DNA from: Auricularia sp. M13
Lineage: Eukaryota; Basidiomycota; Agaricomycetes; Auriculariales; Auriculariaceae
DNA length: 64,000 nucleotides
NCBI GenBank assembly: GCA_037042915.1
Contig: CM073198.1
Coordinates: forward strand, 1,674,001 to 1,738,000
Direction: 5' to 3'
Below, in pieces: positions 3,554 through 47,131 of this stretch. The notes under the pieces are model-generated. The model was given only the letters and a program-made list of their open reading frames with translations. It was not told the DNA's origin and ran no database searches. How positions within the stretch are numbered: the stretch's first letter is position 1; every line of letters begins with the position of its first letter. The position numbers and the translations under genes were made by a program.

Positions 3554-5571
<2,018 letters not shown>

Positions 5572-19513: not shown

Positions 19514-19745
19514 TGTAACCGGCCCGGATTGGAGACATTCCCGGTCTACAACGATGGAGAAGATTCTAGGACTTTCACTACTATTCCATTCCTGTACATT
19601 CTAGAATTAGACTCAAATATGTATATAAGCGCGGGGACTCAGGCAGTAGGAGCGGCATCCTTCGGGATACGGACTTAGCTCGCCTTCGTCCTCCGCACGA
19701 TAGTGCAATCTTATCTAATTATCTTATTCACACAGCCACTCTTTG
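19514..19745 (+). repeat. Left LTR of the gypsy element, first 232 bases
   Basis: Begins TGTAACCGGCC and contains a TATATAA box at 19622-19628. It is interrupted after ACTCTTTG by the 19.36-kb inner element; the remaining 36 bases are at 39111-39146. 232 plus 36 equals 268, the exact length of the right LTR, and I saw no base differences from it. Confidence 0.92.
19738..19745. repeat. Target-site duplication of the inner element, left copy
   Basis: ACTCTTTG, part of the LTR, is present once in the intact right LTR (47083-47090) but twice here: at 19738-19745 and 39103-39110, on either side of the inner element. Confidence 0.9.
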
Positions 19746-19789
19746 GGGGCATGTTGCGGCTTTCAAGGGTAGGAAGCTCCTCCCAACTC

Positions 19790-20095
19790 CGGATTCCTGA
19801 CTCCCAACTCCCAACTTTCCATTTCCTCTCCCCATCTGTATATACATTTTCTACCCTACACTATCTACTTATCCAGCTCCCAACTCCCAGCTCCCAACTC
19901 CGGACTCCCACCTTCGCCGCTCGAATCCCGAGCGCAAGTCCAACTCCAACTCCAAACTCTGCTCCCAGCTCCCAACTCCCAACTCCGGACTCCCACCTGC
20001 GCCGCTCCCATCCCGAGCGCAAGTCCAACTCCAACTCCAAACTCTGCTCCCAACTCCCAGCTCCCAACTCCGGACTCCCACCTCCCGCCGCCAGA
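19790..20095. repeat. Left subterminal repeat array of the inner element
   Basis: CTCCCAACTCC-type words are repeated throughout. Within the array an 85-bp tandem unit occurs about 2.5 times (GGACTCCCACC recurs at 19902, 19987 and 20072). Subterminal motif arrays of this kind are usual binding sites for the element's own transposase. Confidence 0.75.
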
Positions 20096-20801
20096 CACAA
20101 CAGTGACCTTCTCGATGAAGCACTGCAGTGCAACCACGTGCATCGTGTAGCGTAATTTAGGAAGAGCGCGAGCGCAAGGACTTTGGTGGTGTCGGACGCG
20201 TTTCCTATCTGAACTCCAAGAAATGATGATGTACTCATTAACAGCGCAGAGGACGGAAATCGTGCATGGCGACGGCGAACGGAGTGCGCAGGTCGGTAGC
20301 GACGAGCAGTGCAGTACAGCGTACGGGGGCGCCGCTGTACACCTCTGGCGAGAATTCCTGCGGAGCTTGCAAGGGCAGGGCGTACGCGTGGGCTAGCATG
20401 TGCTCGCCCGAGGTGCAGCACGCGGAGGTCGCTAGCGAGCACGGACACAACGGATGTCAACGTTGTGCGGTCACACTGCGGGCGCGGGATGAGACACACC
20501 ACTCCAGCTTCGGGTCGTCTACAGTCTAGTCTTGGCCGCCGCAGTTTCGCTGGTGGGTTTGGCCCTGGCTGGGAAATGGCGGGAGGTCACTGTGTTGGCG
20601 ATCGTCTGCAATTTGCTTCTCTTCGTTGCGCACCGGCTTCGAATGTAATAGATGATGTCTGTCAAGCGCTCAATAAGAGAGTACTTATAACAGACTGGAA
20701 AGAGCGCGTACAATGTTGGATAGAATACTTTTTCTGTTAAGATTACCCTCACGGGGATCAACACCTAGAGCGCCTTGTCAGTCACAAGACAGCGTGAAGC
20801 A
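20096..20801. other. Inner element, non-coding stretch between left repeats and transposase 3' end
   Basis: Only short ORFs without family motifs; no RNA gene or further repeat was seen. Confidence 0.4.
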
Positions 20802-23795
20802 TCACCGAAACCATACGAACTTATGTGCATTCTGTGACTTGGACGAGTTCCGGTACTGGGATAGAGCAGACCTGCCGGTCTTGGCTGCTGCAGCTGGCGC
20901 GAGGTCCTGCTCTTGCTGGCGGAGACGATGCCTGTTCCAGATCGCGAGGAACGAATGCGCCAACTCGATCGCGTGGCGCTGCGACATGTAGCTCATGACC
21001 TTTCGTATTCTAGCGATTCCCGCATTGCCGCACTCGCCTGCGCTGGAGTTGACGCGAGCGAGAAGCTGTCGCCATGGTTCATAGCCGTTGATCAAGCAGG
21101 CTGGCGAGCATCGTGTGTGATCTTGGCCGTGGAACTTGTCGATGATGAAGAGCGTGTCGCCGAAATAGACCGGCTCTCTCGTCATGCAATACGGGGCAGG
21201 GCGCATGCGAAATCGTAGACCACGATTTTGGGCGCCTTCCGCCAGTAGCAAAATAGAGCGGAGAAAACGTCGTTCCGTCCTTCGCCCGCCGGGATAACGT
21301 GAAAGCCAAGGCAGACACTATGCCTGCACCACGCTACCATGAGCCCGCCCGTGAGGCCCTTCTTGCCGTACTCCTGGTAAAACTTGTTGCAGCCGACGTT
21401 CACTCCCTCGTCGGTGACGACTCCGCGCTCCTGCTTGCCGTCTTTCTCCATGTGCGGGTATGCGGGGCGATTACATGAACGCGATGCTTGCCGTAAAAGC
21501 AGCCAGTCTGTGCGCGGACGTGATAAGCACAAGAAACACATGGAGGTAGCGAGTCCGACTTACCTCGCGCCAGTCTTCTTCGTTCGATTCGTTCAGCAGC
21601 GCGTCGTCCGGGTTATGCTCGGACAGCTGGGACCGGACGGTCGTCGCTCGATCCAGGACGAAGGCAGCGAGGCCTCGCAGCTCCTGGCTGATGCACCCGC
21701 GTATACGAAGTTCGAGTTGCGCCACGAGTGCGAACGCCGGGACAATCGGGAGCAGCGGTTCGACCGCGTTCTTGTCGCCCTCAGTCGCGATCTGCTCCAG
21801 GTGCGGCCATGCAGCCGCGGGCGCGAATTGGAGTACGGACTCGTACGCCAAGACCTGCTCGAGCAGTTCCAAGACTAGCCGTCCGTCGTCCTTGCCAAAG
21901 GGATGCTGTCCCGACACGACATGAACAGCGAAAATGAGGGCGAGGTCTTTGTTGACTTTGCAGAGCCGCTCGAACAACACATTCGTGTCGGGCAGCTGTC
22001 CTCCCCGACCCTTGCCTGCGGTGGCTCGTCGACCAGAATCCTTGGAGTTCTTGGCCGGGATTGCGAGATCGTCGTCCTTGCCGTCCACGTCTGCGTCGCT
22101 ACCCTTTTTCCTGCCCTTCTCGTCGCGGCCGAGGAGGCGACGAACCGCGTCTTGGGCTTGTTTCCGAAGCTCTCGATCTTCGACGACGGAGGTAGGGCGC
22201 GAAGGCGGCCGCACATTGGGCCGCGTCGGCGCGTTATCCGACACCATGGTGGGCGGACGCAAGGTCGACGTAAGGGAGCCCTTGGCAAAGCCGGCGGTCA
22301 CGCCGTCGAAGATGATGACCTCGGGTTCATCACCACAGAGCGAGCACTTGAAGCTATCTGGCATGTGCTGCTGACGGCAGAACGCATAGTAGGCGGTTCG
22401 AAAGGTGGTGTCGCCGACGAAGTTGTAAGGCGAGTGCTTCTCGTACACATGGCGAACGGTTTTGCAGTAGGCGGTCAGCGGGGTCTCGGACATGCTCATG
22501 CGGCTCTGAAACGACTCGAACAGCTCGTGGGAGTAGATGCTCTCGTTATTCATATTGAACAGGCCGTATTCGCGGAGATCTGGGCCGCACTTGAGACGGC
22601 AAGAGCTGCATGCCCGGACTTCGATGCGACAGGGCGTTGCTCTCTTTCGCCGTACACAATACATGAGACCGTTTCCACGGTCGAGCTGCTTCTCGGCTCG
22701 CCACCGCAGCGACAGCGAGGATGTTCGCCCAAGGTGAATGATTCGGGTAATTTCACCCCGACGGGCGACGAGTCGACCTTATCCGTCTTGAGCCGGGCCC
22801 ACACTGGTGGCCCAAATGGTAGATGCGAGACGCTGCGCTCGTCTTGCAAGTCTTTCCGACTCTGGGCTTCGACTTTGGCGTTGCGTCAGTATCTGAACAT
22901 CTGCGTTTAGGGCGACTGAGAACTGACCTCGTTCTTGGTCTCGTTGCGCCTTTTCTGCACGGGCGGCCAGAGCCTCGGCGCGGCCGTCCGCATCGTTATC
23001 CGAATCCGCTCTCTCGCCAAAGAAGATCCGCAGAGCCTTCGAGTCCTTCACGGCTTTGATGTGCGCGCACTCGCTGGATCTTGTGTGCTGCGCGCACGCC
23101 CAAGTTCCGTTCCGAGACGAACGCCCGTAATGTGAGACGATTTCGGGAGAGTGCCCGTGTGCATGGGCCAGGAACAGATGGGTTGCCGGGACGGCGTCGG
23201 TCGCCTCCCTGCGATGGAACAGAACGGCGGGAAAGTTATCTACGAGAGCGTTAATCTGTGAACACGCCGTCCAGCGCTAAGGCCCACCTTGGATCGTGAT
23301 GGGCTGGAGTTTAGGAGGGTCCTTGGAGCTGAGGACCATCGCGTGAACGCAAGCTGAGGACTTCTTATAATCTGGGCAGCTGCAGTGATAGGAAATGCGC
23401 TCCTCCTCGTCCAGCTCTCGTCGGATAACGGCCCAGGGGATCAAGCCGCCCACAGGCGTCAGGGTCTCACTGTCGAGATCACATAGCTCGGCGACCCAGG
23501 TTTTCGAATCGATTTGATGGAACGCAAGGTGCTTGCCCAGTGCAACGCGATAGCGCGCATACACGGTGTCTGGCGCGACGTCGGATGGCCGTAGCTTCTT
23601 TCGTTTTGGAGCACAAGGCAGGACGTTCGTAATCTGCCGTTTCCGCTTGGGCTTGGGCTCTGGGCCAAAGATGACGGGGGTGGGGGCTTCAGACGAGGGC
23701 TGTGGGAGCTCATGGAGATCCTTGCGCGAGAGAGTTTTCTTGCCCTTCCCACGGCACCTTGGCAATGGCTTGGGGAGCGGGGAGTAGACCGACAT
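20802..23795 (-). CDS. KDZ-superfamily transposase with SWIM zinc finger and CxC5/CxC6-like cysteine clusters
   Basis: Start at 23795, stop at 20802; a TATATA box lies about 45 bp upstream. Exon 1 ends in a SWIM finger (YHCSCPDYKKSSACVHAMVL). After a 47-bp GT-AG intron at about 23233-23280 the protein continues DNFPAVLFHRREATD and has a second Cys/His stretch (GTWACAQHTRSSECAHIK). Next come cysteine clusters of the type linked to KDZ transposases: HPRCRCGGEP, RACSSCRLKCGPDLREYGLF, FKCSLCGDEPEVIIFDGV. The core at 20802-21500 has GLTGGLMVAWCRHSVCLGFH, KIVVYDFACALPRIA, DTLFIIDKFHGQDHTRC and AGECGNAGI, offering an Asp and a Glu for a DDE-type site. It differs clearly from the outer element's transposase. 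It presumably cuts and joins the element's own ends. Confidence 0.82.
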
Positions 23796-25026
23796 AGTGG
23801 CACGGAATCCCTATAGACAAAGCCGGTTTCCATGCTTCAGTATATATGGCTCGACAATTCGAGTTGCAAAGCCGACTGACCTCCACTAAGGTATGTAAGG
23901 TTCTGTGCCAGCCAGCCAGGTCGCAGATAGAGAGGCGTCTGGGGATAGAAGTGCGAGTAGACGGCGGTGAAATATTCAATTTGACAGTCCAGTCAGTACT
24001 TGCGTCCTGGCGACTCGCATGAACACGACCCACCGCGGGAAAGATCCAGTATATATTCGAAGTTGGTCGAGTTCGTCCCAGAGCAGCAGTCGCGGCCGAG
24101 AAAAATAGTGAGAGAGCGTGGGCGCAGTGTAGCAAGTCGATATGGGTAGCAATAAATGACCGCGTCGCACTACACAGGGACACCCTCGGATTCGAGGGCG
24201 CGCGCTGTGGTCGTGCTCTCGCTCGCTTGCACCTTACTCACGAGAGTCGTGAGTACGGGCAGCGGGGCGAGGTGGGCTGGGTGTCGGCGCTGGGCGGGTG
24301 GCTTGGGGCGAGGAGACAAAGTCCGTTCGGACTCCGCCGGCCGGACGCATCGCACCTTGGCTGACCGTGCGCCGCCCACAATTCTGTGGGCGACCTGCAG
24401 CCCTGGCATGGTGCGATCTCGGCCGCACCACAGACTGTGCAATATGGCAAAAGGTTTACGAATCCGTAAATCTGCGCCAGCGCCGTATGCGTCGGCCGGG
24501 CAATTGCATATGGGCGCGTCCTCGCGTACCTGGAGATCGTGCTTCGCACACTCCCTGTTGCCGTGCAAATCGATCACTGCACGTCGCGCACGACTCCGTA
24601 CGGGGCGCTGCACATCGGGAGCGCCACCGACCCGACATTATTCAGCTCGGACGCCATTTTGCAGGCCGCGATCCAATCGTCGTGCGGCGCACTTGGCCCA
24701 TGCCCGTTATTTCGGCGACCTCGCTAACGCCTCGACTCCGTGGGCGTTTGCCCGGGGTGCGCATCTACGGTCGTCGATGCGCGGGCGCCGGGTAACTGTG
24801 CATGTGGTCCAATCGGTCAGCGTGCTCGAGTTCGTGCTTGGCCCATTTACGCTGCTCTGGCAATTTCGCTAACGGGTTCGATTGCAGTTCGAACGGTCCA
24901 GGTCCTACGACGTCTGACGCCACACGCGAGCCCGTGCAGCGTCATGGCATATATGCGGCAGTCGACTTCGCGCGCACAAGTCTTCGACGCGCCTGCTCCG
25001 CTCCCTGCTCGCTCCCTGTCCGCGCA
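23796..25026. other. Inner element, stretch without an assignable gene
   Basis: Lies between the divergent transposase and small Cys-rich genes, so it probably holds both promoters. ORFs at 24156-24872 and 24170-24613 are long but show no family features; 5' exons of the next gene may be hidden here. Confidence 0.4.
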
Positions 25027-25507
25027 ATGCTACGACAGACTCGACTCGTCGCGAGGCGTCCTCTACCTCCCCAAATCCGGTGCCCCGTTGCTCAATGCGA
25101 CAGGACCTGCGACTGGTACATCTACGACGGACAAGACCCTCTGCTGCACGATGCGGCCATCGCCCAGGTAAGCGCGATCACAATTATTCCAGGATGTGTC
25201 GAGTTGATACGCTCCACAGTGCGATTCGCACGGGCTTGTGGCGTATCGCATCGGTTTCAAGGCTTCGACCATGGTAACGATCATGCCGTTTGCCCTCACG
25301 GCGGAGGAGAAGGTCGCGGAGGAGCAGTGCAAGGAAAGCAAGTCGCACCCCGCGGGTAACACGCCGTGCTTGCGCTGCAGCGCGCGTGGACGCAATACCC
25401 TGTGCACCTTGGCGCTCTGCAAGTTCTGTTGTACGCGGACCAAGCATGAAGGACGCCATATCTCTTGTGGCGTTCAACAACACGACGACGAGAAGGACGG
25501 GAGCTAG
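25027..25507 (+). CDS. Small Cys-rich cargo protein of the inner element
   Basis: Two exons, 25027-25167 and 25220-25507, joined by a 52-bp GT-AG intron, give 142 residues. The first exon carries RCPVAQCDRTCDW, a compact Cys motif. The second has GLVAYRIGFKASTMVTIMPF, a charged stretch with Glu and Lys, then a dense Cys/His block (TPCLRCSARGRNTLC, ALCKFCCTRTKHEG, HISCGV) and an acidic tail. The spacing suggests one or two zinc-binding folds. No named family was recognised. The start is the nearest in-frame ATG; upstream exons are possible. Role unknown; zinc-dependent DNA or protein binding is an inference. Confidence 0.6.
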
Positions 25508-25805
25508 CCTCCGTCCAAGCACTGCAGCGCCCGTAGCTGAGCTCGCTGTCTTGAGCAGGGATTGAATATAATATCTTTGTTTCCCTGCACGCGCCCTCGT
25601 CCGATCCGTTTTATACATTGCTCGCTCCAGAAAGGTCAGCCTCGAGTCCAACGGCCGTGTCGAAGCAGTCAAACTGATTGACATTAAGGCGTGTGATGTT
25701 CTCAGAGACAGGTTGCAGTCGTGCTCGTCGCGAAGACGTGAGCAGCGAATCTATGCTGCATTTCCCGCCGTTATTGACTAAATACATCTCCAGCAGTCGG
25801 TCAGC

Positions 25806-27349
25806 TCACAACCCGGCCATCTTCGCCCTGTACTCCTCCACTATCTTCTCCGCCGCCGCCGCCTGCTCCTGCGCTTGTTGAGCCATCTTGCGAGTCGCCT
25901 CCAACTCGGCCTGCAGGGCCCTCGTCTGCTCCTGGGACTTGGTCTGGTCGTGCTGTAGGCGAGAGATGATCGTGTCGACCTCGCGTGCCCTCTTGGTTCG
26001 AAGCTCGCCCAACTCCTCGAGGAACAGGTCGCGCATTTTCTGAGGAAGGTCCGGCTTCTCGTTCTCGATACTGTCCGAGTGCCAGGTCCACAGCGCCTCG
26101 TGGCCGTTCTTCTGCGCAAACGCGATAAACGCCCATGACGGGCACCAATCGACGAGCTTCTCCATCTGCGCGTTGGACTGGTCAGCCTCAATGGGAATCG
26201 CGCAAGACCGAACCGAACTTACCGCCGCGAATGAAGCTGACAGCTGGGGCTTCACGTTGTGCGACGCGTCGCCGCGGCCTCCATTCCGGGCTGCATTCTT
26301 TATCCACTCCTCGCAGACTCTGGCCGCACGGTTCTTGTACTTCGAGGTGAAGCCGCCTGTGATCTTACCGCCTGCCCCATTGCCCTTCCACCCGTGATCG
26401 ACTGGTAACTTGCCCGTCGAGATTGTGTCGAGATCGACGAGTCCCTTCTTCTTGAGCCGGTCGACCTCGGCGGTCATCTCGATCTCGCACCTTGCTTCGT
26501 CTCCGCCATGCGCGATGTACACGCGGTGAAGCCGATGCGCGAGTTCGTTCATAGAGAGCAGCTTGGGTGGCGTTGGTGGCACGGGCTGCTCGAACGACTT
26601 CGGCGGCGCGGGCGGCGCTGGCGGTGCGGGCTGCTCGAACGACTTCGGCGGCGCGGGCGGCGCTGGCGGTGCGGGCTGCTCGGACGACTTCGGCGGCGCG
26701 GGCGGCGCTGGCGGTGCGGGCTGCTCGGACGACTTCGGCGGCGCGGGCGGCGCTGGCGGTGCGGGCTGCTCGAACGACTTCGGCGGCGCGGGCGGCGCTG
26801 GCGGTGCGGGCTGCTCGAACGACTTAGGTGGTGAGAGGGACAGCGAGAGTGACTCGCGCGGCGCGGGCGACGGCGACCTGGTCTTGTTCGACGCGGATGA
26901 CGTGGGCGCATCGGGTTGGGGGTCGTCCACATCCATGTCGTCGAGTTCCTCGCTGGGAGACTTGCGCGACTCGGGCGAGCTGTCGGCGTCCATATCGTCA
27001 TTGTTCTGCCGGCGGCGAGCGAGGGCCTTCGCCTTGGACGTGATTTTGGCTTTAAGCTGCTGCTTCTTGGCCACGACGACTTCGTCGTCGTTCCGTTTGG
27101 TCTGGGTCGTCAATGAGCCTCATCTAATCCAGCGGAAGATAGTCGACGCACTGGGCAGCCGTTGGAGCCGTGGCGGGCGACAGGATGTCCTTTGGCCACG
27201 GTGCATCTCTTGCAGATGCTCTTGATCGCTTCCTCGACGCGCTGCTGCTTTCCCCGCGTTGCGCCACTGCGAGTCTTGCCAGGAGTTGGGTTGTCGACAG
27301 CGCGTGCGCGCGTCTTCGGCGGGGTGTTGCGTGTTTGGCCGCGAACCAT
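25806..27349 (-). CDS. Pro-repeat / coiled-coil cargo protein of the inner element
   Basis: Exon 1 (27152-27349) starts MVRGQTRNTPPKTRAR and contains a Cys motif (ICKRCTVAKGHPVARHG). A 50-bp intron (GTGCGT donor) leads in phase to exon 2 at 27101. A second short intron probably lies at about 26185-26222, where GTAAGT occurs. The protein has a Lys/Arg-rich segment, an acidic Ser/Asp segment, five 15-residue repeats KSFEQPAPPAPPAPP, a folded region (MNELAHRLHRVYIAHGGDEA, SKYKNRAARVCEEWIKNAAR, VDWCPSWAFIAFAQKNGHEA) and a C-terminal coiled coil of about 75 residues (LQAELEATRKMAQQAQEQAA). Stop at 25806. No family recognised. The layout suggests a structural or chromatin-interacting protein, but that is inference. 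Confidence 0.65.
26597..26822. repeat. Five 45-bp tandem repeats coding Pro/Ala-rich 15-mers
   Basis: Units begin GACTTCGGCGGCGCGGGCGG and differ only at one or two bases. They keep the frame of the gene at 25806-27349, encoding KSFEQPAPPAPPAPP or the KSSEQ variant. Confidence 0.85.
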
Positions 27350-27655
27350 TGTGCTGGAGGTGGAACGAGTCTAAGGGGGAGTTTGGAGTTGGGACCTTTC
27401 AACAAATATCATCGTGCCAACCACATTCGCTCGTGACGCGTCAGCACAGTCGTCAGGGGTATATTCCGAACGTTTTCGCCGGGACTCGAGCCGCCGACGC
27501 TCAAGTTATCGTCGGGCTCCACCGACCATGATTCCCACGGCCGGTGGAGTTCTAAGCGAGATCCTGGTCGTCATAGAAGTCGAGACGTTCATCCCGCCTC
27601 TTGGGGCTCGTGTTTCCGATAGCTTTGGCTGAAGATTCCCGGCGAGCTGCTCGAG

Positions 27656-27662
27656 TATAAAA
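27656..27662 (+). promoter_or_regulatory. TATA box of the gene at 27735
   Basis: TATAAAA lies 79 bp before the start codon. Between it and the start are CTCCCAACTCCCAAC words like those in the element's subterminal arrays. Confidence 0.5.
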
Positions 27663-27734
27663 GTCCAGCCATCGGATGACCATGGGCTCCCATCTCCCAA
27701 CTCCCAACGTCACTCACAACTCCCGACGTCAAGC

Positions 27735-28767
27735 ATGTCGTCTCCCGCTGTCTCCTCGCCCGCTCGTACCGCCCGCTTTGTTCTGCTCTCAAGCAATACG
27801 TTTCGATCGTCGTCGGCACCTGCCCAGCCCCGAGTCGCGTGCATTGCACGGACCCCGCGTGCCCCGCCCAGAGGCTTGACCACCCCCACACCTTCGTCAA
27901 AAAAGGCGTGAACGAGCCCAAAAAATGGTTCATCGTGAGTTATTCGTGTTCATTCCTTTTTTTTCTGTTGGCGGCGCAAGCTGAACGGCTTCTAGTGTTG
28001 GATTTGTGGTCGTCCATGCGCCTCGTACAACACCGAGAGCGAAGAATTTCATTCGTGGGTCAGCAAGAAGAAGCTGAGGGACGAGCTGAAGGAGGCGGGG
28101 GAGAACATGCCGCGGACTGTGCCGTCGCCCTCGGGCGCAGGCTCTGGATCTGGCTCCAGTCAGCGAAGCGGCGGGCCGCCGTACACCCAGCGTTTCCCGG
28201 CAGCGTCCTCCTCCAGCGCTGGGGGGTCTTCTCGCAGGACCTCGGCACGCGTGACCCGTGGCAATGCCAGTGAGCAAAACAACGACGATGACGATGACGA
28301 CGACGGCGGTGACGACGACGTTGGTCACTCCGCGAGCAGCCCCACGGCGAGGCTCGCCAGGCGCACCCCGCGGGAGCTTCTCCTCGAGGGCCTGGTACGT
28401 GGTTCGACTTAGGGCGATCCCATCTCTGCTGACACGCGCTTAGGACGGCACCATCACGCCGTTTATGATCATGACCACGGCGGTCATGGATTACGACGAC
28501 GTGCCCCGTATCATTCATCTCCTCCTGCAACTCTCGGCGTCGGTCCCAGGTCGTCAGTTACAACTCGAAGTCTTCGACCACGGCGTGAACGACTGGATCG
28601 TATTCGACAGGCGTGCCTGGTACTACATCGAAACGCGGCTCCAAGTTCGTGGTCGACTTACCAATGCCCCGCAACCAGCGGAGGCGCCTGTTCCCGCTGC
28701 CAATACGCGGAAGCGCCGCGGCCCAACAACTGGAGGAGGAGCGAGCAAAAAGCAAAAGCAGGCTTAG
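27735..28767 (+). CDS. Cargo protein with an N-terminal Cys4-type motif, inner element
   Basis: Four exons join in frame: 27735-27765, 27828-27934, 27996-28394 and 28444-28767 (861 bases, 286 residues). All introns have GT-AG ends. Near the N-terminus is a probable zinc-binding module: VHCTDPACPAQRLDHPHTF and, after the second intron, CWICGRPCASYN, giving C-x4-C ... C-x2-C-x3-C. A Ser/Gly-rich linker and an acidic run (Asp repeats from GAC/GAT) follow. The C-terminal part has TPFMIMTTAVMDYDDVPRII and GRQLQLEVFDHGVNDWIVFD and ends in a basic KKQKQA tail. No family recognised. The acidic-basic layout and zinc motif suggest a nuclear protein. It may be distantly related in design to the small Cys-rich protein at 25027. 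Confidence 0.72.
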
Positions 28768-28898
28768 AACATGAAATTAGATACACATCGTCCATACCCA
28801 ATCCAAAATGTGTTCCGAGCGCCGTCATACATGCACTATCTAGTCATGATCATTTCCCGAAGTCCTTGTAAGTTGGGTGTGTGAAGGAGAAATCTATT

Positions 28899-30605
28899 CT
28901 ACTCGACTGACTGAGTCGAAGACACCCAGACCGCAGACAAAGGAAGAGGGCCGATAGCTACGTCTTCAAGCATGTCGCGGTGCATAAAATGCGCGACCAT
29001 GACCCTCTGGCCGTCTTTGTGCGTCACAGCGTGGGGCAGAATGCCGCCTCGTAGGAACACCAGTGTTCCCGGCCGATATTCGATTTCCAGGTCCAGCACA
29101 CGCATCACGCCCGACTTGTAGCGACCAACGGTTGCGACTGGCGTCCAGGCCATTTTCATATCCTTGGTGTCCGTGTGCAACGGCGTTTCGCGGTTATAGA
29201 TCAGCGAACGACCGTGAAAGAAAGTGGGGTCGATGGCACTGAGCGCCGCATATGCGGGAAATTTCTCCCCAAGGCGCTGCTTTGCGGCGGTAAACACAGC
29301 GTACTGCGGGGGGTCCACCAGCTGGAACAGATGGTCGAGCCGTTTGCTCATGACCCGAAGTCGCTTCAGCAAGCGCATGGTCGCGTTGAAAGTCTTTATT
29401 TTGTTGAGAATGTCGCGCGACGGTCCCGCGGGGCCACTCTGGATGAGGATTTAGCGTTGTTAGACAGAACTGAAGCAGCTACGCACATGGCGGCCCACCG
29501 CGCCATACGGTGACGAGCTGAAAGACCCCGTGTACCTCGCTCTTGACATGGCGTCTGGTATAACTTCTCGCGGTGTCGCGAGCGTTTTTATCCGCGGCTT
29601 TCTTGATGTTCACCTCGACCTCGCGCCCGAAATCGATGAGGAGCTTGTAGAATATTTTCTGACGCGGCGGTAAGCTTGGCAACCAAATTCTGTGCCCTTC
29701 TCACCCTCGCGTTGCCTCGCAGCCATCTCGGAAAGACGATGACGGCAGGGACGCCTTTTCGTCGACCGCCATCCTTGGTTGTTGACCCTTCCATTTCGTC
29801 TTGGGCATTTTATCGAAGTTTGGCAGGGGCCGGACGATTCGCTTCTGATCTGCGGAGAGGTGCGATTTGAAGTCAAGACCCTTCACCACGTCTGAGAGGG
29901 TGAGAAACGCCGCGAGACTGCAGGAACGAGGTGCGTACGAATGTTCCGCTTTGCGTTTTCCCATGACCTTGTGTTGATTCTGTACCACTTGCGCCAGAAT
30001 TCCTGCGTTGGGCTAGGAATCGCACGGTCAGCGCGTGCGAGAGCAACGTGAGAATCGCTCACTTTCGCTTTCGCTTGCGCGACTTCTTCCGTTGCGGACC
30101 TTCGCTGTCGATTTCTGCTTGGCCGACACGAGTGTTGGCGGGACAGGATGCAGGACGAGGTTCCTGTTCTTTAGATGCGCGGCTTGTGATAGAATTAGTG
30201 ATATGTATGCACAAGCTAACGATGGAGCATACGTGCGCAGAGGTGTAGGCCCGGGCTCGTCGATCTCAAACGGCACCGGGACTTCACCCTCATCGTCTGA
30301 CCACTCGGACACATCGCTATCTTTGCCGACGTCGTCGTTGTCGTCGTCACCGTCGATGGCAGACATCGTCTCCTCTGTGCCATCGGCAGAGAGACCGAAC
30401 ATTTCCCGCACAATTTCGTTCGTGAGCGCTTCTCCTCTGACAGCCTCCAGGACCTGTTCGAAGCTAACTGCCATAGCGGATTCTTCGTCGTAGGCAGCTA
30501 TGACTCTGTGAGAACGATTTTCGCGCACGACGAGAACCGTGACCCACCAATATCGGGATCTGCGGTCAACTGCGACAGTTCCTCAAGCTCCATTGGCATC
30601 GACAT
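28899..30605 (-). CDS. TET/JBP-family 2-oxoglutarate/Fe(II) dioxygenase, inner element
   Basis: Enzymes of this family oxidise methylated or plain thymine-type bases in DNA. The catalytic exon (28899 to about 29440) has the iron ligands HTD (His and Asp near 29170-29177) and the distal His in GGILPHAV (about 29031), with the 2-oxoglutarate Arg in GQRVMV (about 29004). FHGRSLIYNRETPLHTDTKD and RPGTLVFLRGG are typical of fungal TET/JBP proteins. The next upstream exon has KIFYKLLIDFGREVEVNIKK. Exon 1 (30548-30605) begins MSMPMELEEL and splices to VIAAYDEESAMAVSFEQVLE, then an acidic region and a nuclear signal (KKSRKRKRK). Between 29740 and 29990 the coding frame changes without a clear intron, near 29780, so a frameshift is possible. 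KDZ transposons and TET/JBP genes are known to have expanded together in mushroom genomes. Confidence 0.78.
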
Positions 30606-31663
30606 GGTGAGTTGATTCGAAACCGAGCGGGAATCGCAACCTTAGAGCACTTGAAGCTTTCCCGGCCGCCTCGAGGACAAACGCGTGCGAGGACTCGCCG
30701 TGAGGCAAAGTGGCGCCAGGTGCGTGCGGCTGGCGATTAGCAATCTGTCCGAATCGGGATAAGCTTGGCGTCAGGGCTCGCTCCGGATCAGATAAGCCGT
30801 GAGCGTGTTGCAAGGCTGCGGAGGTTGAAACCCGCTTCCCGGGTTGACCCAGTGGTCGCACACCGCCCAAGTACCTGTGCCAGCGCAGCGCAGGCACGGT
30901 ACTTGGGCTCGTGCACGCAGCCTTGCTGACTGCGCAGCGCTGGTCACGGCGCGCGTGCCGGTTCCGCGAACACGCGGCCAACCCCAACCATGCACTTGAC
31001 ACCTGTCCCCCCTGTTTTTTTGTGAAATATTTCGGTCGGAATAGCCTCCTGACCACATCCCGTAGTAGATAGACGCGTAAATCGCGCAAAAGAAGTGCAG
31101 CAACGCCGCGCGATACCCACGTGTACCGGAGCGCGAACCACACGCGTCACATCACGTGACCGTGTCCCGGAACGGACATCTCACCCATCCGGTGTCCGAA
31201 TCTCACTGAGAAACCTCGTGAGAAATGAGAATGGACCATGCTGGCCATGTGAGTCCTTGTGGGACGGAAATGGGACAAAATCGACCAGCTCATTGTTCAT
31301 CACACCCGGCTCACAACGACTTGTCACACAGATTGACATGGACTGAGAAACCACATGAGGGCTGAGGCATCAAGTCACCGTTGTGAGATGAACTGTCATG
31401 GAGCTCCAAACCCGGTGAACGTCGCGTTTGTGAGGTAAACGGTGCGTCGGGCGGCCGCGATTGCACCACCCCATCGACACTGAAGGAGGTGAAGGTCGTC
31501 TTATGACGCCGTCCTGATAAGCTGAGCTGTATGGACGTGTGGCTATAAATTCTCATCATTAAAGGACTCTCCATCCCTCAAACAGCCGTTCCCCCCGGTC
31601 GCGTTTCCGTCTGCCCTCTCCATACACTCCTCTCCTCTCTCAGCGCCCGCGTTCAGTCTACGC
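30606..31663. other. Inner element, promoter-like stretch without a gene
   Basis: Lies between the divergent TET/JBP and 31664 genes. A TATAAAT box at 31544-31550 and a pyrimidine-rich leader precede the latter. Overlapping ORFs show no motif. Confidence 0.4.
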
Positions 31664-32080
31664 ATGGAGATATCCGTGAGATGGCTGCGCGCGCCCTGCT
31701 TTTGTCGACTCGGTATGTCGATGATTCAAGTGCGAGCAAACGATATCCTGACTTGCGTGTTGTCTAGCCGCTCGCGAGCCCTCTCCCGCCGAAACCGATT
31801 CGGTGTATCGCCTTTATAGGCAGTATTGTGAGGATCTTATTCGGAACGATCTCCAACTGTGGGCGCGCATCGTCGCCGCGCAGCTGCCCGCGACGGCGCG
31901 GCTCCTCGACTCCGTCGGTCGTCGATGGCCCGTACTCCCGGAGAACGCGCGGCGCCACGCGGAGCAACTCCTCCGCCAGGTCCAGCTGGACTATACCTTC
32001 AATCTCCCCTCGTCGTCGACGCGGAGGACTACGAGGTCGTCGAGCGCGCGGATGGAGGGGCCGAGCAGGAGCCTAAGTAG
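31664..32080 (+). CDS. Small protein of unknown function, inner element
   Basis: Three exons (31664-31712, 31768-31979, 32027-32080) give 104 residues in a single frame, with GT-AG introns of 55 and 47 bp; a TATA box lies 114 bp upstream. The middle exon is helical and charged (SVYRLYRQYCEDLIRNDLQL, ARLLDSVGRRWPVLPENARR), and the last exon is acidic (DYEVVERADGGAEQEPK). No family recognised. Reading through the second intron instead would give a Ser/Arg-rich end, so the last exon is the less certain part. Confidence 0.55.
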
Positions 32081-32570
32081 GGATCGCCGTTGTAATGTCT
32101 CCAACTTTGTCTCACTGCCCGTGTTTTTCTTGAACTCGATTTTGCCATGAATTTGATTTTTTCACGCTGATACTTTGAGAGGATTCGCACCGCAAAAGAG
32201 TGAGACGAAAGAAATGAATTATTCAGGCGCTGTCGAGCGGAGTTGACAGGAAACTAATATCGGGCGGCTAAGGCCGGCGGCTCCCCAGCTCTCTCTCTTA
32301 CTTCGTGGCACGACTCCGTGACCACCGAAGGCAGACACCGCAGAGAAGTCCGGGCAAGAATCCTTGCCTGCGATATCTGTGTGTGCATAAGCTCTGCGAG
32401 GGGCTCCGCGAGTCAGCGAGACTACCTGACCGCAACTCTGCGGACAGGCGACCGCTCGCGCCAGGAGAAGGGCTGCCAGCTGAGCGCCACAGCACGGCCC
32501 TGCCATTGGCCAGTGGATTTTCTACTGCGGCAAGTGAGCCAGGAATTTACGCAACCACAGAATCGAAGAC

Positions 32571-35500
32571 ATGGACATCGACGACGGCGATCGCATGGAC
32601 TCGAGTGGTCCCCGTAGGGAACCGTGAGTATCTGATGGTAGCACCTTGCACTCATATTCATAAAACATCGTCTAGGACGGAACTCGATGGCCGGGGTCTG
32701 CCACAGGATGGCGACGGTGGACTTGGGGGGAGCTGGAGTGGAGCACGGCAACGCGCCCCGCAGTATGTATATTCTTCGCACCGACAGATCGTAGCACTGA
32801 TCTGTCGCGGTGCGCAGGGACCCCAGCGGTCGAAATCTTGGCTCTTCGAGCTTGAACGCGCCCGTGCGAGCCGAAACAGGCTGCCGCCACTGAGGTGTGT
32901 AACTCGGCCGTTTCGTCGTCCAAAGGCCGTTTTAACTTGCAACGTAGTACCATCACGCAGCCCCTGGCAGAGGCATCTCGACGAAACGCGTGCATGGCGG
33001 GCGAGTTGGGCGGGCTCTTCCCACAAGGGTTCCTTTCGGGGATGCAGTACTGGTGTGCATGGCCAAACGTCACCAGGCCTCGATATCTCGTCCGCTGCAA
33101 TCGCAGCGTCGTCCCCGAAATTCCGGGCGAGGGTCTTCAAACGCGTTGCATCGACGGCCGCCATGGTCTTAACGAGGGCGCCCACCTTCCTCAGTTCTAC
33201 GACGCCAACCAGACTCACACCCTTACACGCCCTCCTCACCGCACCATGGAATCTCGTGCCGTTTCACACCGACCGACCGTGGTACAATCTCGAGCAGGAG
33301 GACCCGTCTGGCGACTTGGGCTGGTTCCAGTTGAAGCGCATCTACGTGAGACCGGTTGGGGCCAATATCTACATGCTCGACAGCGAAGTTCGTCACGGAG
33401 TCCGCGTAAACGTCGACCAGGAGCTGCAAGCATGGGCCGACATGCCGTTGGACTATGAGGACTGGAAGAATCGTGAAATCAAGAAGTCCCTGTCCAATGT
33501 AGCACGTACCCCGGGCAAATCATGAACTCGCTTCTCGCTCTGACCGATATCTTACTCAATCACTGTTTGGGCGACTGGGAACTGACTCAAGCCTTCGCCG
33601 ACTGGCAGGGCTGTCTGAACGAGCTTCGAGGCATGAGAGCGGAAGCTAAGCTAGGAAGGACCAGCATCAGGACCAGCGGTTACGGCGCACTCTTTCCGCG
33701 GACAGGACTCGGTGAAAGCGTCTACTATAGCGAGCTTCAGGAGCTGGAAGGTCGTCTGCACGTCCGAACTCACGAACGGCATGCTCTCAACTGCCGAGGA
33801 GTCTTTACCCGCGACGTGGCTGTCGCAAATGGCTATGCTAGCGTCGATGTCGCCACCTGGTACATCGAGCCATTCGACCCGACGGTGTTCGAGAACCTGC
33901 GAAACCTCCAGCGGCAGGGCGTGCTCAAGCGGGCAACGTACTTCAAATACGGTACCGAGCGCTGTGGGTACATGCGCGCCGTCGAGAAGCGCTTCCACGA
34001 AGTCCCGCTGCCCGCGTTCGATGCTCTGGCTTTCGCCCAATCGAATTCGGCCTACGCCAAGTCCGTCCTGGAGGGTGGTGGCGGGACCAGCCAAGTACCA
34101 TCGAACGCCGAACAACAGATTGCGCCGTTGGACGATGGTGCCATGTCTCCCCCCCCCGTCACAGTCTCGCCGCTGCTGTCGCACGCGCCGCTGCCGTCTG
34201 TTTCGCAACCCCATCCGGCGACCATTGCTGCGACGCAACGGGATCCTCGGCTCCGTTTGCCCGCTAAACCGGTGACCTCGCAAGACGCTGCAACACGGTG
34301 CCCGCGCCAGCAGATGCAGCTCCGAACGCCTTGGACCTCGTCGACATGAATGTGGTCGTTGACGAGCCCGTGGCGTCGACAAGCACGTCTCGCACGGCGG
34401 TCGGCGAGGCTGTTGCGACTGCAAGCACCACGCCCATGGCGGTCGACGAGCCTGTGGCATCGTCGAGTACCAGCACGTCGCACATGGCGGTCGACGAGCC
34501 CGTGGCATCGGCGAGCACGTCGCGCACGCCAATCGGCAGGCCAGGTGCGGTTGCCAGTAGTGACAATGGCGGAAGGAAGAGGAAAGGTAAGCTTCATATG
34601 CAGCTATGCGCTCACGTCCTGAACTTGATGATCAGACCGCAATTACGGCCAAGCAGCTTGAGACCGGAAGCGCCGCAAGAAAGACAAGGGCGAGAGTAAG
34701 CTTGCGCTCTCATCTTCGCCAAAGCAGCGATACTGATATTGGTCGATGACCCAGAAGCCAACGACGATGCTCCGGGACAGGAACCTCGACATCGGAGAGT
34801 CGCCCAGCACCTGATGCGAGACAAGGGCATCGTGGTCAAGACGAAAAATGTCGAGCTGGGCGATGTCGTGGTTACCCGGTTCAACACCACTGAACGTCCG
34901 CCATGGTTCCCAGACACGTTCAGACGCGCAGAGAATATCGTGGGCCGTGTGGATCTGACTCGCGAACGCCAGTTGCGTCTCACCCAAGCGATGGAATACC
35001 CGGTGCCCAAGGCGATTCTCGAGCAAGGCCGGCAGCACAAGATGCCGCTCATTTCGTACTTCGTGAACTCGTGGTACCAAGCCAGGCAGAGTCGGGATTC
35101 GGATAATCCTGAGGAGGCAGCAAAACCCAGACAATCAGTAACGCGTGCGATGATCGTCTGGTTGACGTTGCGCAACTACTACCTTCGTCGGCTTGCTGTT
35201 TCCGCCGTGTCCGACGTGCCTGGGCTAACTGGCCCGGAATGGCGCAACGTCTTGAAGCTCTGTGTACCCAGAAAAGATTTGAGGAGGACGATCGACTACA
35301 TCGGACTCGATGTAGTTATGGAACAGCCGGCGCCGCGCATCATCTCGCCGCCCGAGGAAAACGACGAAGAGCCATTGGATGAAGTCACAGGTGACTCCCA
35401 CACCGCCACTCGATTGTCTGCAGCACAACCCGATACTCCGTCCTCCTCATCGGTACCGGCATCGTCTTCTCGCCGGTCGCCGCCACCGCCGCCGTCATCG

Positions 35501-37101
35501 TCCCAAGCTGCCCCGTCCGACGCAGCGTCGTCCCGAGCATCGCACCCACAGCCAGCCGCACCGCCGGCGTCGCAGACGTCGTATGCTGTTCCGGCACCAC
35601 CTCCGTCAACTCGCTCGACATCTCATTCATCGCGTTCACACGCAACACTGCCCACGCATCCATCGTCGTCGTCCAGGGCATCAAGCTCGTCCCGCACCGC
35701 GACACCGCCGGTTGAACCGCAAACGCTGCCCATCCGTCGCGCTCGACAAGCCTTCCAGGGCTCGGATGACGACTTCACAGACTCGGATGATGAAGACGCG
35801 CCCCGAGGCCCGCCGATTCCAAAACCCACCACAGTGTCCGAAATTCAGGACCCATTGGTGCGGAATATGTTCGACGTCGCTAGCGAAGGCGAGGCTCCTG
35901 CCCGTTCATCGAACCAGCGAGCAAGTGCGGAGCCGAGGGACTGGTATTTCAAGCCCGGGTCAAATAACCCACGGGCCAAAAAAGAATGGAGTTACTTCTA
36001 TTGGGACGATGAGGCCTTTATCGCCACCACGCCGAAAGGCCGGACTTGGGACGAGACAGAGGGACTTGCTGAATGGTGGGATTATGAGCACAGGAGAATC
36101 CTCTTCCTCCCGGTGACGACATCGGGGCTTGATGGCGAGCATTTCCTGAAGACTAACCTGCCATACACGGATATTCAAGGCAAGGCGGTCTTTAATGCGC
36201 GCAATGGCAGACCCTCGCGTCGTATCTGGCGGGAGGATTATGAAGGGTATGTCTGCACGCCGTGTTTTCTGCCAGCGGCTTACGGTGTATCTACAGCGTG
36301 TATGAACGGGCCGGCGTTGCTCGGCCGCTGCAAAAGAAGAGCACTTCCAAGGTTGTTGTGCTGCCTGGTGCTGCAGCGATGCCTCCTCCACCACCCCCTC
36401 ACCCGCCGACGCCGCCTGCACCTCGCCCGCCGACGCCGCCTGCACCTCGCCCGCCGACGCCGCCTGCACCTCGCCCGCCGACGCCGCCTGCACGCCGCCT
36501 GCAAGGTCCGTTTGGCAGCATGCGCGAGTACATCACCGTACTCGGCCCGCCCATGTTCCAAGACATCGAGCTACCACGCGTCCCAAGCTTGGACGATGTC
36601 GACGATGCTGAGGATAAGATCGTCTGGCCATCAGTTCCCTGGCGCCGCTATGTTCTCTGGGAGCTGGCTGAGCTCGAGTTCCGGCATGAACTGTTGTGGC
36701 TGGATCTCGCCATCCGACAGTCGCATCCCGACCACGAGCCACTGCAGTCTCCCGAGGCTTCAGAACGTAACCGGCAGTGTCAAGCCTGCTGGGGTGGCGC
36801 GGACTTTACCCCTGCAGCAGACGAGGACGGCAACTGGCTCTGCAGTGATGACCCGGTGCGCAGACTACGGGCGTTACACACGTTTGCGTCCTTCATGAAG
36901 GCTTGGCCGCGCGCCGCGACGTATCTGAAACCATGGAATGCTCACAAGGACCGCCAGAGTTTCGTCGCGAGCATGGACGTGTCGTCTTCGCACTTCTATG
37001 AGCTCGAGAGTAGCGTCTGGCATTGCTACGCACAGACCTTCTATGACTACCGTCACAAATTGCCGACTTTCCCCTATCTCAAGCCGGAACTGCCATTCTG
37101 A
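32571..37101 (+). CDS. Large multi-exon gene (or two adjacent genes) of unknown function, inner element
   Basis: From ATG at 32571 (MDIDDGDRMDSSG) small exons alternate with clear GT-AG introns up to about 33150. Longer exons follow: WYNLEQEDPSGDLGWFQLKR and IYMLDSEVRHGVRVNVDQEL (33270-33470); DWQGCLNELRGMRAEAKL and VATWYIEPFDPTVFENL (33590-34130); a Pro/Ser/Thr-rich stretch with VDEPVAS repeats and a basic patch (about 34570-34690); NVELGDVVVTRFNTTERPPW and PLISYFVNSWYQARQ (34740-35370); a long disordered Ser/Pro region; KKEWSYFYWDDEAFIATTPK (36000); a 50-bp intron at 36247-36296; four 8-residue PPAPRPPT repeats; and a C-terminal domain with Trp- and Cys-containing blocks (VPWRRYVLWELAELEFRHEL, RQCQACWGGADF). 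Stop at 37101. I do not recognise any domain. The break near 33500-33590 leaves open that these are two genes. Confidence 0.5.
36412..36490. repeat. 24-bp tandem repeats coding PPAPRPPT
   Basis: At least three exact copies of a 24-base unit containing GCCTGCACCTCGCCCGCCGA, in frame within the large cargo gene. Confidence 0.8.
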
Positions 37102-38079
37102 TTTACATAGTATGTATATGGATATCGTCTGGATGCGTTACTTGTATAATATAGATGTAGCTCAGCATATAATTCAACACGTTTTCGCAGCATCCGTCGA
37201 CGCCGTGCGACATCGCGTGAATCAATCCACGGTTTATTTTCCATCATCAAAGTGAGTACTATCGACAGAAATTGCAAAGGTTCTAATATGCATCATTTTG
37301 TAGGAATCATGCAACGGCGACGGTGTCCACGGCCTGCTCGACTGCCCTGGCCAGGCATCGTCCCGGGCATGGTGCTCGGTGGTGGCGTGGCAGGACGGCG
37401 GACTTGAGTCCTCCTTCCAAGCATCGGCGCGTGTTTTCTTTCGACCCTACACAAACGAGCACTCACGCGCCGCAGCCAGGCTGTCACCAAAAATGCTCAA
37501 CCCGCAGCGGAATATACACGGTACGTGTTTTTATTATTGTTCTGGCATTGTCTTTGGGTAGCCCTCTCGTGGCACCGCGAGCGCGACCGCTGTAGATGGC
37601 GTGTACTCGTCATGTTCGCGCTCGAGCACGCCGCGCTCTTATTTCCCTTCACCACCACCGAGTCGGCGCCACGGGCGCGACTATGCCGCTGGACACGTTC
37701 ATTGCTTCGGAGTTGAGAAGTGTCGGCGCTGAGAGCACGACAGAGCTGGCGCCGGTCAGTACTCGCCCTTCTCGCGCCGAGGCTTTTGCCCGGGCGCTGC
37801 TTCTTCTTTTTACCCACACGCGCACGGCGCCAGCGCGATGAGCACGACTCCGTGCTCGTCACCGGCGCCGGCACCGTTTCCCAGACGTCCTACAGCGAGC
37901 CAGCGCCGGCGTCGCGAGACTCCGGCGTTGGCCTGTTTGTCCCGACCGCGTGCTCCCCGTCTCCCACCCCACACGCTGCTCGCCCCCGCCCAGCCCGCAT
38001 ACACACCCATGAATACCTCAGAGCAAATCCCGGTGCTTCCTGCACCAGATTACACACAAAGTACGTCTTTATGCGTTGA
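37102..38079. other. Inner element, possible 5' exons of the next small gene
   Basis: An ATG at 37683 opens a protein-like segment (MPLDTFIASELRSVGAESTT) followed by a donor-like GT, and another segment ends near 38060 before GTACGT. These could be exons of the gene ending at 38801, but the joins are not fixed. Confidence 0.35.
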
Positions 38080-38460
38080 TTATGTCCTTCCACCCCCGCC
38101 TTTCTTCCACACCCGCCTTTCTTCGCGCTCGGGCACTTGCCCGGGCGCGTGCTCGTCTTTCCCCACCGCCGCCGCCGCCGCTGACGCCGCGCGCACGACT
38201 CCGTGCGCGCTCATGGCGTCAGCGGCGGCGGCTCTGCTCGCTTTCTTCGCGCTCGGGCACTTGCCCGGGCGCGTGCTCGTCTCGACCCGCCGCCGCCGCT
38301 GACGCCATGAGCGCGCACGGCGGCGGCTCTGCTCGCTTTTCTTCGCGCTCGGGCACTTGCCCGGGCGCGTGCTCGTCTTTCCCCGCCGCCGCCGCTGACG
38401 CCGCGCGCACGACTCCGTGCGCGCTCATGGCGCCGGCGGCGGCTCTGCTCGCATTTCTTC
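38080..38460. repeat. GC-rich repeat block with embedded palindromes, inner element
   Basis: Four imperfect copies of a unit containing TTCGCGCTCGGGCACTTGCC followed by CGGGCGCGTGCTCGTC, each with the short palindrome GGGCACTTGCCC; copies alternate with (GCC)n/(GGC)n runs and GCGCACGACTCCGTGCGCGC. The block could form strong hairpins. It lies in a probable intron or leader. Confidence 0.75.
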
Positions 38461-38532
38461 GCGCTCTTCTCATTGTTCGCCTTGCTACCTAGCATTTCTG
38501 ACTATCGGGCTTCAGATTCCCTTGCCGATCGG

Positions 38533-38801
38533 ATGGATGTGTTCTATGCCTACCTCTCCACCTTGCCGCTCCCAGGTGAGTCCTTGGTCATTTGCCCTTG
38601 TCATTCTGTCTCTGACTTTGCCTCATTTCAGCCATAAGTTTTGAGGAGCATTTTGCTCGTTTCCAAGCCGATTTTGCGTCCCCAGAACCTGTGCATGCGG
38701 TCAAGGTCCATCGTCCGCTGTGGAAGTTGGACAAGGCCACCGCGCTTCTCAAGGCTAAAAATGTTGCTTACAAGGAGCTTCTAGCTGGCCAAAAAGTCTG
38801 A
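38533..38801 (+). CDS. Small protein of unknown function at the right end of the inner element
   Basis: Two exons, 38533-38575 and 38632-38801, separated by a 56-bp intron with GTGAGT and TTTCAG, give 70 residues: MDVFYAYLSTLPLP, then ISFEEHFARFQADFASPEPV and a Lys-rich helix (KLDKATALLKAKNVAYKELL). The frame is also open upstream of the ATG to a good acceptor at 38514, so longer forms with 5' exons before the repeat block are likely. No family recognised. Confidence 0.5.
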
Positions 38802-38859
38802 TGGAATTTTACTTTTTCTGAACCTTCATGTAACCCATGAGGAACACTATTTTCAATTA

Positions 38860-39089
38860 GATTGGAAGTCGGGAGTTGGGAGTCCGGAGTCCGGAGTCCT
38901 AATCTCAAATTTCCCAATGTGGCCGTTAATAAAGAACCAGGGGAGTCCGGGGTTGGGAGTTGGGAGTCTGGAGTTGATATATCTACTATACAAAATATTT
39001 CAGTCTTCATAAAGACATAATAAATAAGATTTAAATAAGACAAGGAGAGAGGAGTTGGGAGTCGGGAGGAGCTTCCGGACTGTAAGAGG
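38860..39089. repeat. Right subterminal repeat array of the inner element
   Basis: Multiple GAGTTGGGAGTC and GGAGTCCGGAGT words, the reverse complement of the words in the left array, ending in GGGAGGAGCTTCC next to the terminus. The opposite orientation matches a DNA transposon with inverted ends. Confidence 0.75.
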
Positions 39090-39102
39090 TGTAACATATC
39101 CG

Positions 39103-39146
39103 ACTCTTTGCGTGATCCGAAACGACCCATTGGAACTACCGTTACA
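39103..39146 (+). repeat. Duplicated ACTCTTTG plus the last 36 bases of the left LTR
   Basis: 39103-39110 is the second copy of the inner element's target-site duplication; 39111-39146 completes the LTR and ends CCGTTACA. Confidence 0.92.
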
Positions 39147-39202
39147 ATTTGGTGGACACTGTGGTTTGAATTCATAACAGACCTTTTGCGAAGCAAGTAC
39201 TT

Positions 39203-46858: not shown

Positions 46859-47126
46859 TGTAACCGGCCCGGATTGGAGACATTCCCGGTCTACAACGAT
46901 GGAGAAGATTCTAGGACTTTCACTACTATTCCATTCCTGTACATTCTAGAATTAGACTCAAATATGTATATAAGCGCGGGGACTCAGGCAGTAGGAGCGG
47001 CATCCTTCGGGATACGGACTTAGCTCGCCTTCGTCCTCCGCACGATAGTGCAATCTTATCTAATTATCTTATTCACACAGCCACTCTTTGCGTGATCCGA
47101 AACGACCCATTGGAACTACCGTTACA
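46859..47126 (+). repeat. Right LTR of the gypsy element (268 bp, intact)
   Basis: TGTAACCGGCC to CCGTTACA, with TATATAA at 46967-46973. It is the uninterrupted reference copy that proves where the inner element entered the left LTR. The target-site duplication ACGCG follows at 47127-47131. Confidence 0.95.
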
Positions 47127-47131
47127 ACGCG

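Follow-up and report, generated by a model that had tools for sequence, protein, structure and literature searches.

A KDZ-type transposon of Auricularia with a TET/JBP dioxygenase gene apparently set into a recurrent backbone of putative transposition genes

When a large transposon carries several genes in addition to its transposase gene, are these genes passengers or do they contribute to transposition? This question is raised by a locus of Auricularia sp. M13 (Basidiomycota, Agaricomycetes), where a 64,000-nucleotide stretch of DNA (GenBank assembly GCA_037042915.1, contig CM073198.1, positions 1,674,001 to 1,738,000 of the forward strand; hereafter, the window) contains a 19,357-bp transposon that encodes a KDZ-type transposase (gene K) and a dioxygenase of the TET/JBP family (gene T). 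The remaining main genes of this element are H and ABC, the latter detected as three regions, A, B, and C (Table 1). A first-pass annotation, made from the sequence alone, described the element as a KDZ-type transposon that moved as one unit and carried TET/JBP along with unrecognised cargo. We compared the element with its relatives in the same genome, which are denoted here by contig (C1, C2, and so on).

The transposon can be delimited to the base. An 8-bp target-site duplication (TSD), ACTCTTTG, directly abuts its first and last positions, 19746 and 39102. The target was the 269-bp 5' long terminal repeat (LTR) of a retroelement (19514-19745 plus 39111-39147), the 3' LTR of which is uninterrupted and provides an empty site within the same window: the left flank (19514-19745) is 100% identical to 46859-47090, and the right flank (39103-39147) is 100% identical to 47083-47127. 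Given the TSD and the intact 3' LTR as the empty site, the whole transposon, TET gene included, was inserted as a single unit. The first-pass annotation was right on this point as well as on the exact ends and the duplication, and the same ends recur in a second copy, on C8. The retroelement itself (19514-47127) has identical 269-bp LTRs and a long open frame (39170-45385), and appears Ty3/gypsy-like by eye. The ends of the transposon read GGGG..CCG, and the terminal 60 bases form an imperfect terminal inverted repeat (TIR) with 40 of the 60 positions matching; this alignment scores 60, whereas none of 2000 60-mers drawn at random from the window scored above 42. The combination of an 8-bp TSD with TIRs, which is characteristic of the Zisupton and Dileera groups of KDZ transposons, is thus present in the window copy.

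The second copy (C8:3311058-3335731) shares the first and last bases and the main genes with the window copy, and is found in genome searches with either end; the long matching pieces are 97-99% identical, and the C8 copy contains about 5 kb of extra sequence inserted near 28246 (window numbering), plus smaller differences. The search with the right end also yielded a relative on C2 (81%) that has A, B, and C matches nearby and no K, H, or TET match in the genome match tables; this is probably a partial derivative. A second family, with a TET about 54% alike, is represented by an element on C5 (C5:3337099-3355971) that also has an 8-bp TSD, CATACGCG; no other exact match occurred in the 4.8 kb that were searched. 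A C3 copy shares the left end of the C5 element, and copies on C3, C4, and C11 share its right end; the left side of the C4 copy is not alignable.

For the comparison of gene neighbourhoods across the genome, the matches were reduced by hand to one row per locus (K, 46 of 82 rows; T, 25 of 34; H, 30 of 31; A, 17 of 21; B, 40 of 59; C, 76 of 79); the rows left out belonged to the same loci, as additional exons or as fragments. Loci were chained within 13 kb. The order K-, H-, T-, A+B+C+ is found in 18 of the 25 TET loci (complete in 11 and without one or more members in 7), and in one more, K alone lies beside TET. Another 19 clusters lack TET and still keep K and C in the same order, namely, 11 K-H-C, 4 K-H-B-C, and 4 K-C, with H present in 15 of the 19. 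The other clusters consist of C alone (20), B-C (16), A-B-C (3), or K alone (9), and at 14 of the 20 C-alone loci, a divergently oriented transposase detected with the KDZ core profile (PF18758) lies within 25 kb. Overall, a divergent KDZ transposase is located within 25 kb of 50 of the 76 C-domain loci, compared to a mean of 2.5 and a maximum of 8 in 1000 trials with random positions on the same contigs, the 149 PF18758 rows having first been reduced to 95, one per locus; convergent KDZ transposases are found near 5 C-domain loci and same-strand ones near 8. At 14 of the 50 loci, the divergent partner is detected by PF18758 alone and represents another KDZ type.

Because the backbone order recurs with and without TET, H and ABC look like transposition partners, and TET is probably a later addition to a shared K-H-ABC backbone, made once. 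The contrary reading, that of the first-pass annotation, is a giant transposon with captured host genes in which H, ABC, and TET are all passengers. Passages of PMC12477816 describe giant KDZ elements with extra genes, and G5, a small and weakly supported open reading frame of the window element, was indeed found in its own family only, but the order and orientation of H and ABC relative to K are kept in clusters with and without TET, C lies beside a divergent KDZ transposase at the 50 loci mentioned above, and the C protein evolves slowly. From the comparison within this genome, we therefore reject H and ABC as random cargo, so that the 'unrecognised cargo' of the first-pass annotation does not hold for these genes, and consider the passenger scenario as a whole quite improbable.

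Wherever TET is present in the ordered clusters, it occupies the position between H and ABC. In a tree of 27 of the 76 C domains (the rows that could be fetched, with 12 rows of unknown status uncounted, long branches, and an arbitrary root), the 9 TET-bearing rows fall on one side of a single branch (support 84/79), and 4 rows from TET-less K-H-C clusters group together (support 99/97). The TET-less relative C6:3648884-3661989 has no match to the TET protein or the Tet_JBP profile, and the 3.4-kb stretch beyond H in this relative, which is part of the H-ABC gap, yields no TET match either (best E 2.2). The existence of backbone clusters without TET could be taken to mean that TET arrived by a separate insertion in the window copy only. 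Yet, TET lies between backbone genes in 18 of the 25 loci, in two diverged C-domain groups, and both copies of the window family carry it, which refutes such a late insertion for the window copy and leaves it next to no probability; a separate arrival of TET is tenable solely as an old capture in the lineage. The first-pass annotation called for a search for other copies with the same ends and gene set: the C8 copy has these ends and the main genes, but TET is missing from some relatives. It also held that copies lacking the genes, or a separately inserted TET, would undo its view, and this came half true, TET being the part that may be absent. Two TET-less copies, C6:3644200-3665950 and C9:3352700-3374350, agree to 99.6% across 991 bp on the side of the transposase but have little in common on the other side, and are possibly a mosaic.

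Both ends of the element also carry oriented arrays of the hexamer CTCCCA, with left/right counts of 16/4 in the window copy, 13/6 in the C5 element, and 9/6 in the C3 copy; in all three, the opposite strand has none. Inside the window element, the density of CTCCCA is 0.27 per kb per strand, and this motif ranks first among all hexamers when presence at both ends is scored jointly in the window and C5 elements. The arrays are poor in CpG, with 0 to 4.5 CpG per 100 bp versus about 10.5 inside the element.

The explanation that we favour, and consider moderately probable, is that the window element belongs to a KDZ lineage with 8-bp TSDs and TIRs (Zisupton/Dileera-like) in which K, H, and ABC form a backbone of transposition partners, and in which TET was captured once. 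Under this scenario, K would cut and join the element ends, and H and/or ABC, as its partners, would bind the CTCCCA arrays, oriented and poor in CpG, that lie at the two ends. TET, presumably captured in a single event into the slot between H and ABC, would oxidise methylated bases such that the element genes stay expressed, without full protection from CpG mutation, and the window copy would have moved with an enzyme supplied from elsewhere. A more far-reaching version, which we advance only tentatively, is that ABC with its C domain is a general second KDZ transposition protein that reads CpG-poor end arrays, and that one lineage acquired a TET with an altered active site in the gap separating the divergent genes H and ABC; the ends would then offer few CpGs to methylate, and the inner genes would be kept on by the element's own enzyme.

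Several observations weigh against the favoured explanation; they concern the gene order, the ends, the transposase, the dioxygenase, and CpG mutation. One of the 25 TET loci breaks the order, with T and C on the same strand, and five are solitary, and the support of the C-domain tree for a single origin of TET is moderate, with the root arbitrary. In the TET-less C6 relative, the 3.4-kb stretch beyond H matches no open reading frame (ORF) of the window element, and its frames, named by position and by eye, resemble the remainder of H on the minus strand and the beginning of a gene on the plus strand. There is no 8-bp repeat at the flanks of the C8 copy and no TSD at the C3 copy of the second family. 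The CTCCCA motif was picked after inspection of the sequence, and no CTCCCA array is present in 400 bp from what is presumably the left end of a TET-less relative.

With regard to the transposase, the match of K to the KDZ core (PF18758) stays below the cut-off of 26.6 bits, with E=1.2e-4 and 22.3 bits, in a hand-joined 907-aa protein that spans a frame change, and the window copy does not appear among the 149 rows of the genome-wide PF18758 search. The KDZ-associated cysteine cluster CxC4 (PF18717) is well over the cut-off in K (E=1.3e-25), and a SWIM-like match is below it; the KDZ type given by the first-pass annotation is borne out by CxC4. Four TET-less relatives of the CxC4 type (C8:2211971, C8:2991851, C1:7600005, and C4:180927) reach the PF18758 cut-off, one of them only together with its neighbours. 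A further difficulty is that the frame of K shifts by one base near 21197, within the catalytic core, in both the window and the C8 copies, and changes at other places in the C4, C5, and TET-less C9 copies. The C3 relative is open over the same 190 residues of K, and a TET-less C6 copy is open over 183.

With the frame of its transposase interrupted within the core, the window copy probably moved using the enzyme of another copy. It is a nearly even prospect that the window copy is a passenger, non-autonomous and dependent on enzymes that other copies supply, while its genes decay, a reading that is compatible with the favoured explanation. In favour of it is the one-base shift near 21197, which the C8 copy has too, and passages of PMC12477816 propose movement in trans of KDZ transposase pseudogenes in Ectocarpus. 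Conversely, the host retroelement is young, given its identical LTRs, the other exons are open, and the ratio of nonsynonymous to synonymous substitution rates (dN/dS) of TET and C between families is low: in comparison with the C3 relative, dN/dS is 0.21 for TET, 0.18 for C, and 0.43 for A, with synonymous sites near saturation, and in comparison with C2, the synonymous sites of TET are saturated. Per-gene values against the C8 copy were set aside, since some exons yielded more differences than the DNA comparison permits, probably from pieces read out of frame.

The presence of a TET/JBP gene in the element, as claimed in the first-pass annotation, is supported by a Tet_JBP domain over the cut-off (E=1e-11, 44.8 bits versus 34.9), and the closest solved structure is CcTet of Coprinopsis cinerea (PDB 7vpn, E=1.3e-10). 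In the whole genome, the Tet_JBP profile has 19 matches, all at TET loci already listed and 4 of them over the cut-off. In the alignment to CcTet, the HxD...H triad and the following arginine, which we take to be the iron-binding triad and the 2-oxoglutarate-associated arginine, are kept, and the motif HTDx(R/K)DxKxA(W/F)TP is found in 24 of the 24 TET loci read, a count that omits the 25th locus, C4:4292362. The match at this locus (C4:4292362-4292847) is over the Pfam cut-off and strongly diverged, at 24% to the window TET; K, H, A, B, and C are unmatched for 13 kb to either side, and the nearest PF18758 match is about 24 kb off.

The point against the favoured explanation that comes from the dioxygenase is that, in ungapped alignment, Gly331 and Asp337 of CcTet are replaced by Asp and Thr, respectively, in all 24 loci. 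Neither the residues of AG-type TETs (Gly/Ser at 331 and Asp at 337) nor the HxE of the PE type were found in these 24 loci, which all have HTD. According to portions of Kojima 2025 (PMC12730594), Gly331 and Asp337 of CcTet are linked to the recognition of 5-methylcytosine (5mC) and N6-methyladenine (6mA), and Asp337 is essential for the 5mC activity of CcTet and conserved in the TETs of Kyakuja transposons. Therefore, the 5mC activity of CcTet cannot be assumed for the TETs analysed here. The TET of these elements might instead generate another modified base or a stable one, for instance by acting on 6mA or by leaving oxidised cytosine as a mark, so that its role would be modification and not 5mC removal. 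This fits the two replacements in all 24 loci with the triad and arginine retained, as well as the high CpG mutability that persists in these elements, but other residues may compensate for the replacements, and the alignment to CcTet covers about 100 residues of a structure of another subtype; on balance, we deem it rather unlikely.

Between the window and C8 copies, there are 62 transitions at 3633 CpG positions and 21 at 13,855 other positions, an approximately 11-fold excess per site that is somewhat inflated by counting as a CpG site any CpG present in either copy; 53 of the 62 CpG losses are in the C8 copy. In the other TET-bearing family, three comparisons give an approximately 5- to 33-fold CpG excess and a fourth, short one gives about 8-fold. 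Matches to host DNA methylases in the genome comprise 11 exon-level rows, all over the cut-off. The CpG-transition excess together with the methylase matches makes cytosine methylation of these elements likely, on sequence evidence; the CpG observed/expected ratio fails to separate the elements. That two TET-bearing copies are hypermutated at CpG shows that TET does not fully protect the element from CpG mutation, since methylation-type mutation reaches the element despite TET, and this, too, counts against the favoured explanation. In a TET-less control pair, none of the 180 CpG positions over 990 bp is changed, too few for a comparison. The first-pass annotation also suggested that the element may couple its transposition to the modification of its own DNA; such coupling is putative.

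The gene models, produced with a codon-usage script, are approximate. The A, B, and C matches share one 948-aa open frame in a relative at C9:2770785-2773070, the B and C matches share one of 1184 aa on C1, and a splice model unites all three in the window copy; hence A, B, and C most likely belong to one gene, and we reject the reading of three separate proteins. Accordingly, of the at least six genes that the first-pass annotation counted beside TET/JBP, the transposase, H, and ABC are, like TET itself, well supported, but the two small ORFs, G5 and D, are weak, and A, B, and C shrink, most likely, to one. Pfam scans of H and of the ABC pieces gave no credible match, the best being TelA for H (E 0.014, below the cut-off). 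The C domain matched no Pfam family (best E 0.055) and no PDB-derived profile (best E 0.71), and its single-sequence AlphaFold model has a predicted local distance difference test score (pLDDT) of 39.9. In 14 aligned copies of the C domain, the invariant residues are E59, F62, R63, W99, P106, W137, P138, W175, Q180, D184, P193, P197, and P200.

Table 1. Features of the transposon and its target, in window coordinates
Feature	Coordinates	Strand	Basis or remark
Whole transposon, 19,357 bp	19746..39102	.	End bases common to C8 copy; TSD and in-window empty site
Left TSD, ACTCTTTG	19738..19745	.	Empty site in 3' LTR
Right TSD, ACTCTTTG	39103..39110	.	Empty site in 3' LTR
Left terminal region: imperfect TIR, then oriented CTCCCA array, CpG-poor	19746..20100	+	16 repeats in 355 bp
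Right terminal region: inverted TIR and CTCCCA repeats, CpG-poor	38856..39102	-	4 inverted repeats in 247 bp
K, KDZ transposase gene: SWIM-like (weak), CxC4 zinc motifs, KDZ-like catalytic core	20802..23810	-	Profile scans, gene model
H: N-terminal zinc-knuckle-like motif (by eye), Pro-rich repeats, C-terminal coiled coil; recurs beside other KDZ transposases	25611..27349	-	Approximate model
G5, small ORF, weak; seen solely in the two copies of the window family	28064..28767	+	Model, genome search
T, TET/JBP dioxygenase gene: model 467 aa; catalytic exon 28899-29450, HTD...H...R	28899..30605	-	Profile, structure-profile match, gene model
ABC, most likely one large gene; start uncertain (perhaps 31.7-32.8 kb)	33195..37101	+	Open frames of relatives, splice model
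C domain, without a Pfam or PDB match, C-terminal in ABC	within 36496-37098	+	Alignment of copies
D, small ORF close to the right end, weak; best piece 81% aa identity in C2 relative	38516..38801	+	Model, match table
3' LTR of host retroelement (empty target site)	46859..47127	.	100% identical to the interrupted 5' LTR

Other features of the window include a match to a different KDZ-type transposase just past the retroelement (48230-48976, minus strand; PF18758, E=1.3e-62, two internal stops), a 370-bp sequence present as exact inverted copies 35 kb apart (15043-15412 and 50234-50603) that flank the nested elements, and a near-palindrome of about 730 bp (9081-9808) that is 83% identical to its own reverse complement.

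In TET-bearing KDZ elements, K, H, and ABC look like the core and TET like an optional part. The coexistence, in one genome, of relatives with and without TET on one backbone offers a natural comparison for the effect of TET on the methylation, mutation, and expression of its own copies, and the conserved C domain, without a Pfam or PDB match, is a testable candidate for a partner of the KDZ transposase. A parallel is provided by the plant En/Spm (CACTA) transposons, in which subterminal repeats are bound by the protein TNPA. The window element resembles En/Spm in having oriented short repeats at both ends and a second transposon protein, but En/Spm belongs to a different superfamily, and the binding of the arrays in the KDZ elements is putative. 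CcTet, the nearest characterised structure, has the HxD...H triad and the following arginine in common with the TETs described here and differs from them at positions 331 and 337.

The link between TET/JBP and KDZ transposons was reportedly made by Iyer and colleagues in 2014 (in PNAS), who are said to have noted additional encoded proteins, including a divergent HMG domain. Accessory genes in fungal KDZ elements are mentioned, with reference to Iyer 2014, in passages of PMC12477816. TET-bearing KDZ transposons of Agaricomycetes, along with a proposed anti-silencing role, have already been published, as portions of Kojima 2025 (PMC12730594) make clear. What the present analysis adds to these published elements is the backbone, the C domain, and the changes in the TET active site. 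The text portions of Kojima 2025 (PMC12730594), as distinct from its figures and tables, make no mention of an H/ABC backbone, a slot, or terminal arrays for KDZ, and in the texts consulted, which include neither that of Iyer 2014 nor any supplements, neither the K-H-[T]-ABC backbone nor the C domain was found described.

Among the known systems, the KDZ1-3 elements of Cryptococcus neoformans are similar to the window element in being mobile and in having TIRs and TSDs of 8 bp (KDZ1) or 4-8 bp (KDZ2 and KDZ3), but are smaller, about 9-11 kb, and encode a transposase of the CxC1 type, with no TET named in the passages of PMC12810828 on which this comparison draws. A close likeness is to the TET-bearing elements described in portions of Kojima 2025 (PMC12730594), which combine a KDZ transposase and TET/JBP within delimited ends, the Zisupton and Dileera elements with 8-bp TSDs. 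The TET-bearing Kyakuja elements of the same source, in contrast, have 7-bp TSDs, CA..TG ends, and no TIRs, and membership of the window element in Kyakuja is ruled out by its 8-bp TSD, its GGGG..CCG ends, and its TIRs.

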